Source: Actinomycetota bacterium (GTDB lineage: Bacteria; Actinomycetota; Acidimicrobiia; Acidimicrobiales; RAAP-2). From it: a DNA stretch of 47,178 bases. A model generated the notes under the pieces. The model saw only the letters and a program-made list of their open reading frames with translations, was not told the origin of the DNA and did no database searches. The stretch lies in the NCBI GenBank assembly GCA_021324045.1, contig JAJPJV010000017.1, positions 1 to 47,178 of the forward strand, in the 5' to 3' direction. Of the stretch, positions 23,052 to 27,945 are shown one piece after another (the stretch's first letter is position 1; each line of letters starts with the position of its first letter). Position numbers and translations under genes: made by a program.

Positions 23052-23382
23052 GGTGGCGATCCTCCTTCTCTTCTGGAACTGCGACTACGTCGGTCCTACC
23101 GGCTGGACCTGCAGAGGACCGTGTGCCGCCGTGTCGTCGAAGGACGCTATCAGCCCTCCGCCTGGTGGAGGGGAGCTCGAGGGCGACTACTCGGTACCCG
23201 GCGCGGTGGCCCGAGACCGCAGCAGGAGGCAGCGCCAGCTCGTGGGCCGATTGGCGGGGCCTTCGGCCGCGCCGCGACCGGCGGGCACCTCCGGCAGCGG
23301 CAGAACCGCCGCCCGCTCAGGACCGCTCGGCGCGACCGAGCCTGCCGATCCGACGCCGGCGAGGCATCCCGGTCGAGTCCCC
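23052..23382. other. 331-bp gap upstream of the cold-shock gene
   Basis: No gene is supported. It must hold the csp promoter and 5' leader (the ribosome site is at its left edge) and the 3' end of the cysS transcript. It is very GC-rich with short hairpins such as GGCC-TTC-GGCC near 23260. I see no T-tract terminator and no element I can firmly assign. Confidence 0.4.
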
Positions 23383-24780
23383 TTAGCGGTGGCGAATCCG
23401 GGTTCCCTCCGGGCTGTCCTCGACCACCCATCCCGACTCGCTGAGCCGACGGCGGATCTCATCCGCGCTGGCCCAGTCGCGCCGCGCCCGCGCCCGGTCG
23501 CGCTCGGCGACGAGCGCCGCGATCTCGGGGTCGAGCACGTCGTCGTCGCTCCCCCGCAGGGCGAGCCCGAGGACGGCGCACAGGACGTTCACCGTCGCGG
23601 CGACCGCGCGCCCCTCTTCGCTTCTTCCCTCGTCGGCAAGCTCGTTTGCCCGGGTGACGAGCTCGAAGATCATCGCACGCGCCGCAGGGGTGTCGAGGTC
23701 GTCGTCCATGGCGTCACAGAACCGCTCCACAGACGCCGGATCGGCTTGCGCGGCGGGCCCCACACCTTTGACCACGAACCCTGCGTCCTCGAGGGGGCTG
23801 TGGAGGGAGAACCGCCGGGCTAAAGCGTCGAGCCGGCTGAGGGCTGCTCCGGACTGCTCCATGGTCTCCGGGGTGACCTCGATCGGCGAGCGATAGTGGG
23901 CCCCGAGCACGAGCAACCGGAAGGCGCGGGCGTCGGCTCGTTCGATCAAGTCCCGCAGCGTCGTGAAGTTCTGGAGCGACTTCGACATCTTCTGACCTTC
24001 GACCATCACCCACCCGTTGTGCACCCAATGGCGGGCGAAGGGGTGACCCAGGGCCACCGCTTGGGCGCGCTCGTTCTCGTGGTGTGGAAACGCCAGGTCG
24101 AGCCCGCCACCGTGGAGGTCGAAACCATCCCCGAGGAGATCCAGTGACATGACCACACACTCGGTATGCCAACCGGGTCGTCCCGGCCCCCACGGCGAAG
24201 CCCACGTGGGCTCGCCCGGCTTCGCCTTCTTCCACAACACGAAATCGAGTGGAGAACGCTTGTCCTCGGCGAGCTCGACGCGGGCGCCCGCACGCAGGCT
24301 CTCCAGGGACTGCCGAGCGAGAAGGCCGTAGCCACGGACCTGACCAACGTCGAGATACACGCCGTCGCTCGTCTCGTACGCCACACCGCGACGAACCAGC
24401 TCCTCGATGAATTCCACCATTCGCTCGACGTAGGCCGTCGCATGCGGCGCCTCGTCGGGGCGAAGTACCCCCAATGCGTCTGCATCCTCCCACCACGTCG
24501 CCTCGAACTGTGCCGCGACGTCCACCTCCGTCCGGCCCTCGGCCGCAGCCCGTTCGATGATCTTGTCGTCGACGTCGGTCACGTTCGAGACGAAGTTGAC
24601 CTCCAGCCCGCTGAAGAGCAGGTATCGGCGGAGCACGTCGAAGACGAGCGCCATCCGGCCATGACCGAGATGGGCCCGGTCGTAGACCGTGGGCCCACAG
24701 ACGTACATCGCGACCTTGCCCTCGGTGCGTAAGTCGAGGGGGCGCACCGTGGCCGTTGCTGTGTCGTACAGGCGGAGCAC
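23383..24780 (-). CDS. cysS: Cysteinyl-tRNA synthetase
   Basis: A 465-residue class I synthetase charging tRNA-Cys. Zinc ligands are C28 (YVCGPTVYD), C208 (WHTECVVMS) and the HHENE region (about 233-237). The HIGH-equivalent AHLGHGR is at about 36-42 and KMSKS at 264-268. Length is that of free-standing CysRS. The start is GTG with TACCGT 6 nt upstream and no ribosome site. It diverges from valS across only 20 bp. Confidence 0.94.
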   Translation of the reverse strand: MLRLYDTATATVRPLDLRTEGKVAMYVCGPTVYDRAHLGHGRMALVFDVLRRYLLFSGLEVNFVSNVTDVDDKIIERAAAEGRTEVDVAAQFEATWWEDADALGVLRPDEAPHATAYVERMVEFIEELVRRGVAYETSDGVYLDVGQVRGYGLLARQSLESLRAGARVELAEDKRSPLDFVLWKKAKPGEPTWASPWGPGRPGWHTECVVMSLDLLGDGFDLHGGGLDLAFPHHENERAQAVALGHPFARHWVHNGWVMVEGQKMSKSLQNFTTLRDLIERADARAFRLLVLGAHYRSPIEVTPETMEQSGAALSRLDALARRFSLHSPLEDAGFVVKGVGPAAQADPASVERFCDAMDDDLDTPAARAMIFELVTRANELADEGRSEEGRAVAATVNVLCAVLGLALRGSDDDVLDPEIAALVAERDRARARRDWASADEIRRRLSESGWVVEDSPEGTRIRHR

Positions 24781-24785
24781 CCAGG

Positions 24786-24792
24786 TACGGTA
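24786..24792. promoter_or_regulatory. Overlapping bidirectional -10 element TACGGTA for valS and cysS
   Basis: The 7-bp sequence gives TACGGT on the plus strand (24786-24791), 9 nt before the valS ATG. It gives TACCGT on the minus strand (24792-24787), 6 nt before the cysS GTG. The two hexamers share five base pairs and both predict leaderless transcripts. Surrounding GTAC repeats make it nearly symmetrical. Confidence 0.55.
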
Positions 24793-24800
24793 CTCCGAGC

Positions 24801-27383
24801 ATGACGCCTCGCAATCCCGTCCCTGACAAACCCACCCTCGAAGGGCTCGAGGCTAAGTGGTCGACGATCTGGCAAGCGGAGGGGACCTACCGGTTCGATC
24901 GCTCTCGACCCCGAGAAGAGGTGTTCTCCATCGACACGCCGCCACCGACCGTCAGTGGTTCCCTCCACATGGGGTCAGCCTTCGGCTACATCCAGACTGA
25001 TGCCATCGCCCGATTCCGACGGATGCGCGGGGACGCCGTCTTCTACCCGATGGGCTGGGACGACAATGGCCTGCCCACGGTCCGACGCGTGCAGAACTAT
25101 TTCGGCGTTCGCTGCGATCCCAGCCTGCCCTATGACCCCTCCTTTGCACCGAGACCACCAACGGGCGAGGATCTCGGTTCCGGGCGCGGCACCCGTCGCG
25201 AAGTGGCGATCTCGCGCCGAAACTTCATCGAGCTCTGCCATCGCCTGACCGCAGAAGACGAGCAGGTCTTCGAACAACTCTGGCGCGGCCTGGGTCTATC
25301 GGTGGACTGGTCGCTGGCGTACACGACCATCGACGACCGGTCGCGACGCGCCGCGCAGCGAGCGTTCCTGCGCAATCTCGCCCGCGGCGAGGCCTACCAG
25401 GCCGAGGCGCCCACGCTATGGGACGTCGACTTCCAGACCGCCGTTGCCCAAGCTGAGCTCGAGGATCGGGAACGCCCCGGCGCGTACCACCGCGTCGTCT
25501 TCCACGCCGCCGGGCAGGACATCATCGTCGAGACCACTCGGCCCGAGCTCATCCCCTCTTGCGTCGCCCTGGTCGCCCATCCCGACGACCCGCGCTACCG
25601 CGCGCTGGTGGGGACCACCGTTCGATCGCCGCTGTTCGGCGTACCCGTGCCGGTGCACAGCCATGCGCTCGCCGATCCTGAGAAGGGATCGGGGATCGCG
25701 ATGATCTGCACCTTCGGCGACACCACCGACGTCACCTGGTGGCGCGAGCTCAATCTGCCGACGCGCACGATCATCGGCCGCGACGGTCGCCTTGCCTCGG
25801 AGCGGCCCGAATGGCTCCCCGACGGTCCCTGGGAGGCACTGGCGGGCGAGACGGTAAGCGGGGCACGCAAGCGCATCGTCGAGTTGCTCCGTGCGTCCGG
25901 TGAGCTCCAGGGCGATCCCCGCCCGATCGTCCACGCGGTCAAGTTCTACGAGAAGGGCGAGCACCCCCTAGAAATCGTCTCGAGCCGGCAGTGGTACATC
26001 CGCAATGGTGGGCGTGACGAGGCCATCCGCGCTGCCATGCTCGAACGCGGCCGCCAGTTGCGCTGGCACCCCGAGTTCATGCGCGTCCGCTACGAGCACT
26101 GGGTCGAAGGCCTCAACGGCGACTGGCTCATCAGCCGCCAGCAGGCCTTCGGCGTCCCGTTCCCGGTCTGGTACCCGGTGCGAGAGGATGGGACGGTCGA
26201 CCGCGACCGTCCCATCCTCGCTGAGGAGTCGGCCCTACCGGTCGACCCCTCGACGGATTGCCCTCCAGGCTTCGACGAGGCCTCAAGGGGTCGCCCTGGT
26301 GGGTTCGTCGGTGACCCTGACGTGATGGACACCTGGGCGACCTCGTCGCTCACCCCGCAAATCGCCTGCGGCTGGGAGGACGACCCCGATCTGTTCCGCC
26401 GAACGTTCCCGATGAACCTGCGGCCTCAGGGCCCCGAGATCATCCGAACCTGGCTCTTCTCGACGGCGCTCCGATCGCATTACGAGCATGGCGCGCTGCC
26501 GTGGTCCGATGCCTCCATCAACGGGTGGGTGCTCGACCCCGACCGCAAGAAGATGTCGAAGTCCAAAGGCAACGTCGTGACCCCCCAGCCGCTCGTCGAC
26601 GAGTTCGGTGCAGACGGCCTGCGCTACTGGGCAGCGAGCGGACGCCCGGGTGCCGACACCGCGGTGGACGAGGGGCAGATGCGAGTCGGGCGGCGTTTGG
26701 CAATCAAGATCCTCAACGCCTCCAAGTTCGTCATCGCTCGTCTGGGTGGAGGAGAAGCGCCCGGGGTCGCGGCGGTCACTGAGGCGCTCGACGCGGCGAT
26801 GCTCGCCGAGCTGTCCGAGGTCTGTGAGGAGGCCACCGAGGCGTTCGAGGCGTTCGACTACACCCGGGCCCTCGAGAGCGCGGAACGCTTCTTCTGGTCG
26901 TTCTGCGACGACTACCTCGAGCTCGTGAAGTCGAGGGCCTACGGTCAACCCCAAGGTCCCGACGCCTCGCAATCGGTGCGCTCTGCGCACGCGGCGCTCG
27001 CCACCGCCCTCTCCGTCCAGCAGCGGCTGTTCGCCCCGTTCCTGCCCTTCGCGACCGAAGAGGCATGGAGCTGGTGGCAGGCGGGCTCCATCCACCGTGC
27101 ACCCTGGCCACGCGCTGGCGAGGTCCGCCCCAGCTCCCTGCGTCCCGGCCCGAACGTCTTCGAGGTCGCCGCCGCGGTGGTAGGGGCCGTGCGCCGACAC
27201 AAGACCGCAGAGAAGCGCTCCCTGCGTGCTCGCGTGTCCAGGGTCGAGGTGATCGACACGCCAGAGCGCCTCGGCGCGGTCGCCGCAGCGGCTGCCGATA
27301 TCGGCGAAGCGGGCAACATCGCAGACCTGGTGCTCACCGAGGGCGAGCCCGCGACGGTGCTCGTCGAGCTCAGCGGGGGGTGA
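24801..27383 (+). CDS. valS: Valyl-tRNA synthetase
   Basis: An 860-residue class I synthetase for tRNA-Val. The HIGH-type motif is PTVSGSLHMGSAFGYIQTD (about residues 50-68), followed by MGWDDNGLPTVRRVQNYFGVRCDP, which is typical of actinobacterial ValRS. The CP1 editing insertion occupies about 200-400. KMSKS (584-588) lies in DRKKMSKSKGN, before a C-terminal anticodon-binding helical domain. The ATG at 24801 is chosen because the protein begins there in the family style and a -10 hexamer sits 9 nt upstream. Confidence 0.95.
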   Translation: MTPRNPVPDKPTLEGLEAKWSTIWQAEGTYRFDRSRPREEVFSIDTPPPTVSGSLHMGSAFGYIQTDAIARFRRMRGDAVFYPMGWDDNGLPTVRRVQNYFGVRCDPSLPYDPSFAPRPPTGEDLGSGRGTRREVAISRRNFIELCHRLTAEDEQVFEQLWRGLGLSVDWSLAYTTIDDRSRRAAQRAFLRNLARGEAYQAEAPTLWDVDFQTAVAQAELEDRERPGAYHRVVFHAAGQDIIVETTRPELIPSCVALVAHPDDPRYRALVGTTVRSPLFGVPVPVHSHALADPEKGSGIAMICTFGDTTDVTWWRELNLPTRTIIGRDGRLASERPEWLPDGPWEALAGETVSGARKRIVELLRASGELQGDPRPIVHAVKFYEKGEHPLEIVSSRQWYIRNGGRDEAIRAAMLERGRQLRWHPEFMRVRYEHWVEGLNGDWLISRQQAFGVPFPVWYPVREDGTVDRDRPILAEESALPVDPSTDCPPGFDEASRGRPGGFVGDPDVMDTWATSSLTPQIACGWEDDPDLFRRTFPMNLRPQGPEIIRTWLFSTALRSHYEHGALPWSDASINGWVLDPDRKKMSKSKGNVVTPQPLVDEFGADGLRYWAASGRPGADTAVDEGQMRVGRRLAIKILNASKFVIARLGGGEAPGVAAVTEALDAAMLAELSEVCEEATEAFEAFDYTRALESAERFFWSFCDDYLELVKSRAYGQPQGPDASQSVRSAHAALATALSVQQRLFAPFLPFATEEAWSWWQAGSIHRAPWPRAGEVRPSSLRPGPNVFEVAAAVVGAVRRHKTAEKRSLRARVSRVEVIDTPERLGAVAAAAADIGEAGNIADLVLTEGEPATVLVELSGG

Positions 27384-27420
27384 GCACGCCGAGCGTTCGG
27401 GCATATCCGCCCAGTTCCCG

Positions 27421-27945
27421 ATGTTGAAGAAGAACATGGCCGTGGAAGCAAGCCAAGATGAGGGACTGACGAGCACACCACCAAGGGTGACCGTGCGCGA
27501 GCTCGGTCACCTGGTGCTCTACGTCACAGACGTGAGCCTTTCCGCGGCTTTCTACCGTGACATCCTGGGGTGGCGCCAGATCCTGCCCAAGCCCGGTGAG
27601 CCGTTCGTAGGCATGGCCGCCTTCTCAGGAGGGCGAACCCATCATGAGCTGCTCCTCATCGAAGTCGGGAGGGGAGCGCAGCCGATTCCGGCCGGGCGCC
27701 GTGTCGGGATGTACCACTTCGGGCTCAAGGTTGGCGACTCCGACGACGATCTGCGCGCCGTCCTGCACCGAATCCAGCAGGCGGGGGTCACGGTGCTCGG
27801 AGCCTCTGACCACACGGTGACCCACAGTCTTTACATCGCCGATCCCGACGGCAACGAAGTCGAGCTCTACATCGACGTCCCTGGCGTCGACTGGCGTCAC
27901 GACGAATCGCTCTTCGCTGCCCAAACTCGTCCTCTGCATCTCTGA
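27421..27945 (+). CDS. VOC-superfamily (glyoxalase/extradiol dioxygenase-like) protein
   Basis: A 174-residue protein with two beta-alpha-beta-beta-beta VOC modules. Likely metal ligands are the His of ELGHLVLYV (about 29), the His of GMYHFGLKV (about 99) and the Glu of NEVELYID (about 144). FYRDILGWR and YIADPDGNEVELY are typical of the catechol 2,3-dioxygenase/CatE-like branch. Substrate unknown. The first ATG has no clear ribosome site; the ATG at 27436 (codon 6) is an equal alternative. It lies 37 bp after valS on the same strand. Confidence 0.78.
   Translation: MLKKNMAVEASQDEGLTSTPPRVTVRELGHLVLYVTDVSLSAAFYRDILGWRQILPKPGEPFVGMAAFSGGRTHHELLLIEVGRGAQPIPAGRRVGMYHFGLKVGDSDDDLRAVLHRIQQAGVTVLGASDHTVTHSLYIADPDGNEVELYIDVPGVDWRHDESLFAAQTRPLHL

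Follow-up and report, generated by a model that had tools for sequence, protein, structure and literature searches.

How are two divergent aminoacyl-tRNA synthetase genes transcribed when only 20 bp lie between their start codons? This question is raised by a stretch of 47,178 nucleotides from an Actinomycetota bacterium of the order Acidimicrobiales (contig JAJPJV010000017.1, here called the window), which is contig C28 in a draft genome of 2.75 Mb (G000) that is 96% complete and has a GC content of 66% in the sampled part. Within the window, the cysteine--tRNA ligase gene cysS is encoded on the reverse strand (23383..24780; GTG start at 24780, 465 aa; NCBIfam TIGR00435, 467 bits against a cut-off of 340) and the valine--tRNA ligase gene valS on the forward strand (24801..27383; ATG start at 24801, 860 aa; above the cut-off for NCBIfam NF000540 and PRK13208). 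The family models confirm the identity of both genes, and the two closely spaced divergent starts from which the original prediction had set out are borne out. The evidence collected here points strongly to the heptamer TACGGTA in the gap as a conserved bidirectional housekeeping promoter, in which a single -10 element very probably serves the leaderless transcription of both cysS and valS.

The gap (24781..24800; CCAGGTACGGTACTCCGAGC) is made up of 5 nt, the symmetric heptamer TACGGTA (24786..24792, without strand) and another 8 nt. On the forward strand, the heptamer contains the hexamer TACGGT (24786..24791), which ends 9 nt before the valS ATG; on the reverse strand, it contains TACCGT (24787..24792), which ends 6 nt before the cysS GTG. 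This double use of one heptamer had been proposed before and is borne out by the letters. TANNNT about 12 nt ahead of the start codon has been published as the leaderless (TA-led) signal of Actinobacteria (PMC3160421). In a sample of 389,056 bases of G000, comprising the window and 20 other stretches with 692 candidate ATG/GTG starts of 260 crudely called genes, TANNNT was enriched 6-9 nt ahead of the candidate starts, with 29 matches at these four spacers (9, 6, 8 and 6 matches at 6, 7, 8 and 9 nt) compared to 34 over the other 27. The spacers of cysS (6 nt) and valS (9 nt) mark the two ends of this peak, and both genes therefore fit the leaderless signal of their own genome. TANNNTA occurred 18 times in the sample (4.6e-5 per base), and the probability that a random 20-bp gap holds a correctly placed copy is about 2e-4. 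TACGGTA between cysS and valS is not a chance event.

Conservation of TANNNTA in relatives had been named beforehand as a check. Searches for CysS in two overlapping sets, 198 genomes from the class and 397 from the order, gave matches in 195 and 395, respectively, of which only a part was fetched. We examined 143 cysS loci, 56 of them returned by the searches, 80 obtained by position from better-scoring matches and 7 taken from 80 named ValS loci because they also contain cysS. Divergent valS lies within 500 bp in 107 loci and beyond 500 bp in 5. In 104 of the 107 close loci, a cysS start codon coincides exactly with aligned residue 1, which backs the start assigned in the window. One TANNNTA common to both genes is present in 74 of the 107 (shared type), whereas 32 have separate boxes (separate type) and one is ambiguous; the latter (L139, AT-rich, register 7/9) was kept out of the shared count, and L052 and L155 were assigned to the shared group by pattern. 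The check thus came out in favor of the original prediction.

Within the shared type, the register, given as nt to cysS/nt to valS, is 5/8 in 53 loci, 6/8 in 6, 5/5 in 4 and 5/7 in 3, with 2 loci each at 5/9, 6/9, 6/5 and 6/10. Eight heptamers occur: TACGGTA (33), TACCGTA (24), TAAACTA (11), TACCCTA (2), and TACGATA, TAAGGTA, TAACCTA and TAGGATA in single loci. Hence, C is favored at position 3 and G at position 5, and 57 of the 74 boxes read TACSGTA. All 70 distinct windows, two of which (L052, L155) are out of register, agree at columns 2 and 6 of the box, while the non-coding bases flanking the box carry 0.01-0.65 bits. The shared type spans 24 coded families and one named record with 54 genus labels, and both types occur within three families. 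On a quick, unrooted CysS tree, the type changed at least 8 times, with 5 changes forced by well supported branches, compared to 27.6 in shuffles. These patterns suggest that selection has maintained the box and its spacing through much of the order. Two records in which cysS adjoins valS carry the titles Acidimicrobiaceae (L092) and Ilumatobacteraceae (L125), and the named records among the ValS relatives include several Acidimicrobiia. Outside the order, no valS was found in the 0.45-1.2 kb fetched upstream of cysS at 13 of 13 class-level loci. A few loci nearly repeat one another: L115 and L187 cover one and the same stretch, and the gap is identical in L006 and L150.

The 32 separate-type loci, most of which have longer gaps, provide a natural comparison. 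Here, each gene has its own TANNNT, located 6-9 nt before cysS in 32/32 and 6-11 nt ahead of a candidate valS start in 31/32. Position 7, which is needed by the opposite direction only, is A in 2 of 63 such one-way boxes, compared to about 11 expected from the local composition (p 6e-4, without correction for kinship). One-way boxes favor G at position 3 (35/63), the commonest being TAGCGT and TAGCCT; it is the shared box that gives ..GT in either direction. In L011, a locus from the family of the window, the cysS-side box CAAACTA is positioned exactly 5 nt from cysS and is accompanied by TAAACTG on the valS side. The two resemble copies of the TAAACTA present in its genus, except that in each the base required for the other direction is absent. 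The same pattern, with T1 missing on the cysS side and A7 on the valS side, is seen in L007 (CACGGTA/TACGCTC), L145 (AACGGTA/TACCGTT) and L175 (CACCGTA/TACGGTG). These four loci may have arisen by duplication of the box followed by complementary loss. In another locus (L094:2980-3009; ACTCTAGGGT) the two boxes overlap by two bases, and by the usual distances the two starts would be separated by 23 bp, which is likewise reported as common in bidirectional promoters (PMC12825309). The record of L094 is titled Acidobacteria bacterium and is possibly misnamed; the locus appears acidimicrobial.

These loci also bear on the question of whether the heptamer promotes one gene only, its symmetry being incidental and the other gene being led from a promoter inside its neighbor. 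Such an arrangement would be in line with one-way TANNNT boxes being the rule in the separate type, and sequence cannot reveal additional promoters. However, the same loci keep a near-leaderless box at both genes, and T1 and A7 are found, as the class is defined, in 74/74 shared loci versus A7 in the 2 of 63 one-way boxes. Furthermore, Shine-Dalgarno-like 4-mers (GGAG, GAGG, AGGA or AAGG at -13 to -5) occur in 0 of 72 shared loci, on the cysS side and the valS side alike. We consider a promoter for one gene only to be improbable. Even less likely is that the box was conserved merely through descent or coding overlap, without any two-way function. While all loci are akin and those of the shared type cluster on the tree, the box lies outside both reading frames, its TA positions are fixed next to poorly conserved non-coding columns, and its inner letters take eight forms. 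In addition, each box in L011, L007, L145 and L175 lacks only the base needed in the other direction, which argues against mere descent.

The box might also be read as a palindromic operator, bound by a regulator of both genes, rather than as a promoter element, given that the 57 TACSGTA boxes are near-perfect palindromes. Against this stand the 11 TAAACTA boxes, whose inner letters are not palindromic, the box-to-start distances, which on both sides are those of a -10, and the plain TANNNT at each gene of the separate-type loci, mostly TAGCGT and TAGCCT. Moreover, 20 bp leave little space for another promoter, and we give the operator a very small chance. Control of the synthetases by a T-box or another leader RNA was ruled out: a search of 23300-27500 gave no Rfam-recognizable leader RNA at E 0.1 or better, and the 20-bp gap has no room for a leader.

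How, then, would a single -10 serve both genes? TACGGTA would be the single -10 element of a promoter of the sigma-A type, to which RNA polymerase may bind in either orientation. In published bidirectional promoters, the -7T and -11A bases flip out of the helix and are read by sigma, and they pair reciprocally at a start distance of 18 bp (PMC10268837). At cysS/valS, base pair 24787 (A:T) would accordingly double as the valS -11A and the cysS -7T, and base pair 24791 (T:A) as the valS -7T and the cysS -11A; 24786 (T) would be used by valS alone and 24792 (A) by cysS alone. One orientation of the polymerase is predicted to begin RNA at the first base of the cysS GTG (24780, reverse strand), which lies 7 bp away from box position -7. 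The opposite orientation would begin 0-3 nt before the valS ATG, either at 24798 (A, forward strand), as deduced from the published 18-bp mode (PMC12825309, PMC10268837), or at 24801. The valS transcript may thus carry a 3-nt leader, as the usual distance from -10 to start gives 24798 unless the polymerase takes a 9-nt spacer. Both mRNAs would be translated by leaderless initiation, since neither gene has a Shine-Dalgarno site. The claim of one symmetric -10 for two leaderless synthetase genes hence stands with respect to the shared box and, as far as the usual distance predicts, the cysS start at its GTG; for valS, 'leaderless' should be taken as approximate.

In Mycobacterium tuberculosis, the published analysis found no -35 motif and inferred that the -10 dominates (PMC3898074), which would make a promoter whose -35 regions fall inside coding sequence plausible. 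Competition between the cysS and valS directions need not follow: for five bidirectional promoters of E. coli, basal activity is reported to be too low for competition, which was seen only after activation (PMC12825309). The synthetase promoters may be stronger than these E. coli test cases.

Is this arrangement restricted to cysS/valS? When the pattern CAY-N(5-8)-TANNNTA-N(5-8)-RTG was run over the whole of G000, two places matched: the cysS/valS gap and one position on contig C44, where menB and menE diverge (L258:1501-1528 = G000:C44:54835-54862). There, the candidate box TACGCTA lies between the menB GTG and the menE ATG, which are 22 bp apart, with spacers of 9 and 8 nt. This menE is below the family cut-offs and is best matched by o-succinylbenzoate--CoA ligase models. 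Both sites sit at true divergent starts. A control pattern read backward matched 19 sites compared to 2, but is unmatched, AT being about three times as frequent as TA in G000. A crudely called divergent pair 7 bp apart in the same genome (L218:3733-3741) has no fitting TANNNTA.

Ten other genomes of the order contained 4-9 pattern sites each, with 25 in G059. Outside cysS/valS, we examined 44 sites, 40 fetched from 8 genomes and 4 others; they take in a part of the 6 sites in G227, of the 6 in G106 and of the 25 in G059. A site passed as coding if both frames had at least 60 aa and a score/100 of at least 10, with codon scores trained on G000; frames crossing the site were no ground for exclusion. 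Two coding divergent starts were found at 16 of the 40 sites (16/44 with the extra four, all of which failed), representing 13 distinct gene pairs. With the control ATNNNAT, which has 99 sites across 5 genomes, none of 14 returned loci, corresponding to 13 places, passed (Fisher p 0.005 for 16/40 sites versus 0/13 places). The passing pairs include an IleS-like class I synthetase/DUF167, msrA/rpiB, SpoIIM/RDD, menA/menE, VIT1/radical SAM, two AI-2E transporters, MFS/TldD-type and menE/menB. Pfam scans covered L279, L283, L288, L289, L292, L293, L294, L295, L302 and L314, and NCBIfam scans L289 and L315. Judged by eye, three pairs recur in two families each (L293/L297, L294/L296, L295/L300). 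L294 and L296 are divergent AI-2E-type transporter genes with a common TACTGTA in two families and possibly represent a duplicated gene pair; L294 has the same Pfam family on both sides, and L296 was assigned by eye. With the same build at menB/menE in the same genome and at further pairs in relatives, uniqueness of the cysS/valS site is ruled out.

A search for MenB across 148 genomes of the order returned 30 loci. menE is divergent in 24 of them, within 500 bp in 23, and an in-frame shared TANNNTA occurs in 7 of these 23, with the registers 8/7, 7/7, 5/7, 8/6, 9/5, 10/5 and 9/5. The menB/menE arrangement is therefore less fixed than that of cysS/valS. In other classes of the phylum, 3 of 15 returned sites pass the same coding test. 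At one of these three (L379), an apparent pyrD/pyrE pair, named by eye, diverges from TATGCTA in a 21-bp gap.

Several points weigh against a shared two-way promoter. The valS side has 8 nt, 3 nt beyond perfect symmetry, in 53 + 6 of the 74 loci. The loci are akin and were drawn by CysS similarity, so that their counts are not independent; in 31 of the 143 the fetched DNA contains no valS, in 5 valS lies more than 500 bp away and one (L139) is ambiguous. The position-7 comparison follows partly from the way the shared loci are defined. Two fitting sites in G000 are no excess over the 2.8 expected genome-wide from a first-order Markov model (20 random copies of the sample), and 28 of the 44 fitting sites elsewhere in related genomes are not at two coding divergent starts. 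Extra promoters may lie inside the opposite genes, and a literature search for transcript data on the organism or the order found none.

As to the genes themselves, a search of G000 with valS returned it as the single full-length match. It falls below the cut-off of TIGR00422, the common bacterial type, and belongs to the alt_ValS/PRK13208 type. In addition to cysS, G000 contains two shorter CysS/MshC-like genes (L363:303-1430 and L364:275-1501), both of which score higher with the MshC than with the CysS model, yet remain under the MshC cut-off; one of them barely reaches the CysS cut-off. Both synthetases may be essential; valS has a single full-length copy, while cysS is accompanied by these two shorter genes.

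How does the cysS/valS box compare with known systems? Symmetric bidirectional promoters and leaderless genes are each already known. The former have been described in E. coli and Salmonella by Warman, Grainger and colleagues, with start distances of 7-25 bp (PMC10268837, PMC12825309). Like these, the box would be a shared symmetric -10 with reciprocal -7T/-11A (24787, 24791), it sits between divergent genes, where two mRNAs can be made, and its predicted start distance of 18 bp (24780/24798) or 21 bp (24780/24801) falls inside the reported range. Unlike them, it has the form TANNNTA/TACSGTA in a high-GC actinomycete; both mRNAs are predicted to be leaderless or nearly so, in which case the promoter would occupy the entire 20-bp gap; and its register is retained by many members of an order, between two housekeeping synthetase genes. 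As in the TA-led genes described for actinobacteria (PMC3160421, PMC3898074), TANNNT begins 12 nt (cysS) or 15 nt (valS) before the start, counted from its first T, and a Shine-Dalgarno site is missing at both genes; in contrast to them, a single element leads two genes. M. tuberculosis is reported to have juxtaposed divergent leaderless promoters, such as Rv1129c/prpD (PMC3898074), which likewise concern two divergent genes that are both leaderless, here by prediction. In the open-access literature, covered mainly by titles and abstract openings, we found no report of a shared cysS/valS promoter, of a bidirectional promoter kept in register across an order, or of one that takes up the entire interval from one start codon to the other.

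Bidirectional promoters are reportedly common, yet hardly studied according to the authors who described them (PMC12825309). Tentatively, and with rather less confidence than we place in the shared promoter itself, the symmetric -10 may be viewed as a selected regulatory device rather than as a side effect of a degenerate consensus: divergent leaderless pairs, often linked in function, would be yoked to a two-way promoter conserved across an order, promoters of one gene would shed the symmetric base, and mutually exclusive binding would hold the two mRNAs in a fixed ratio. Binding in one orientation would exclude the other because the gap is no longer than a promoter core. The pairs cited for this possibility are cysS/valS, menB/menE, menA/menE, SpoIIM/RDD and the two AI-2E-type transporters. 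The 74 shared loci have one box for two genes, and the separated and apparently split loci may serve as natural mutants, halves without the base of the other direction. The box also yields single-base predictions, according to which changes at 24786 should affect valS only, at 24792 cysS only, and at 24787 and 24791 both. cysS/valS may provide a compact system in which to examine whether two housekeeping genes are balanced by mutually exclusive binding of polymerase.

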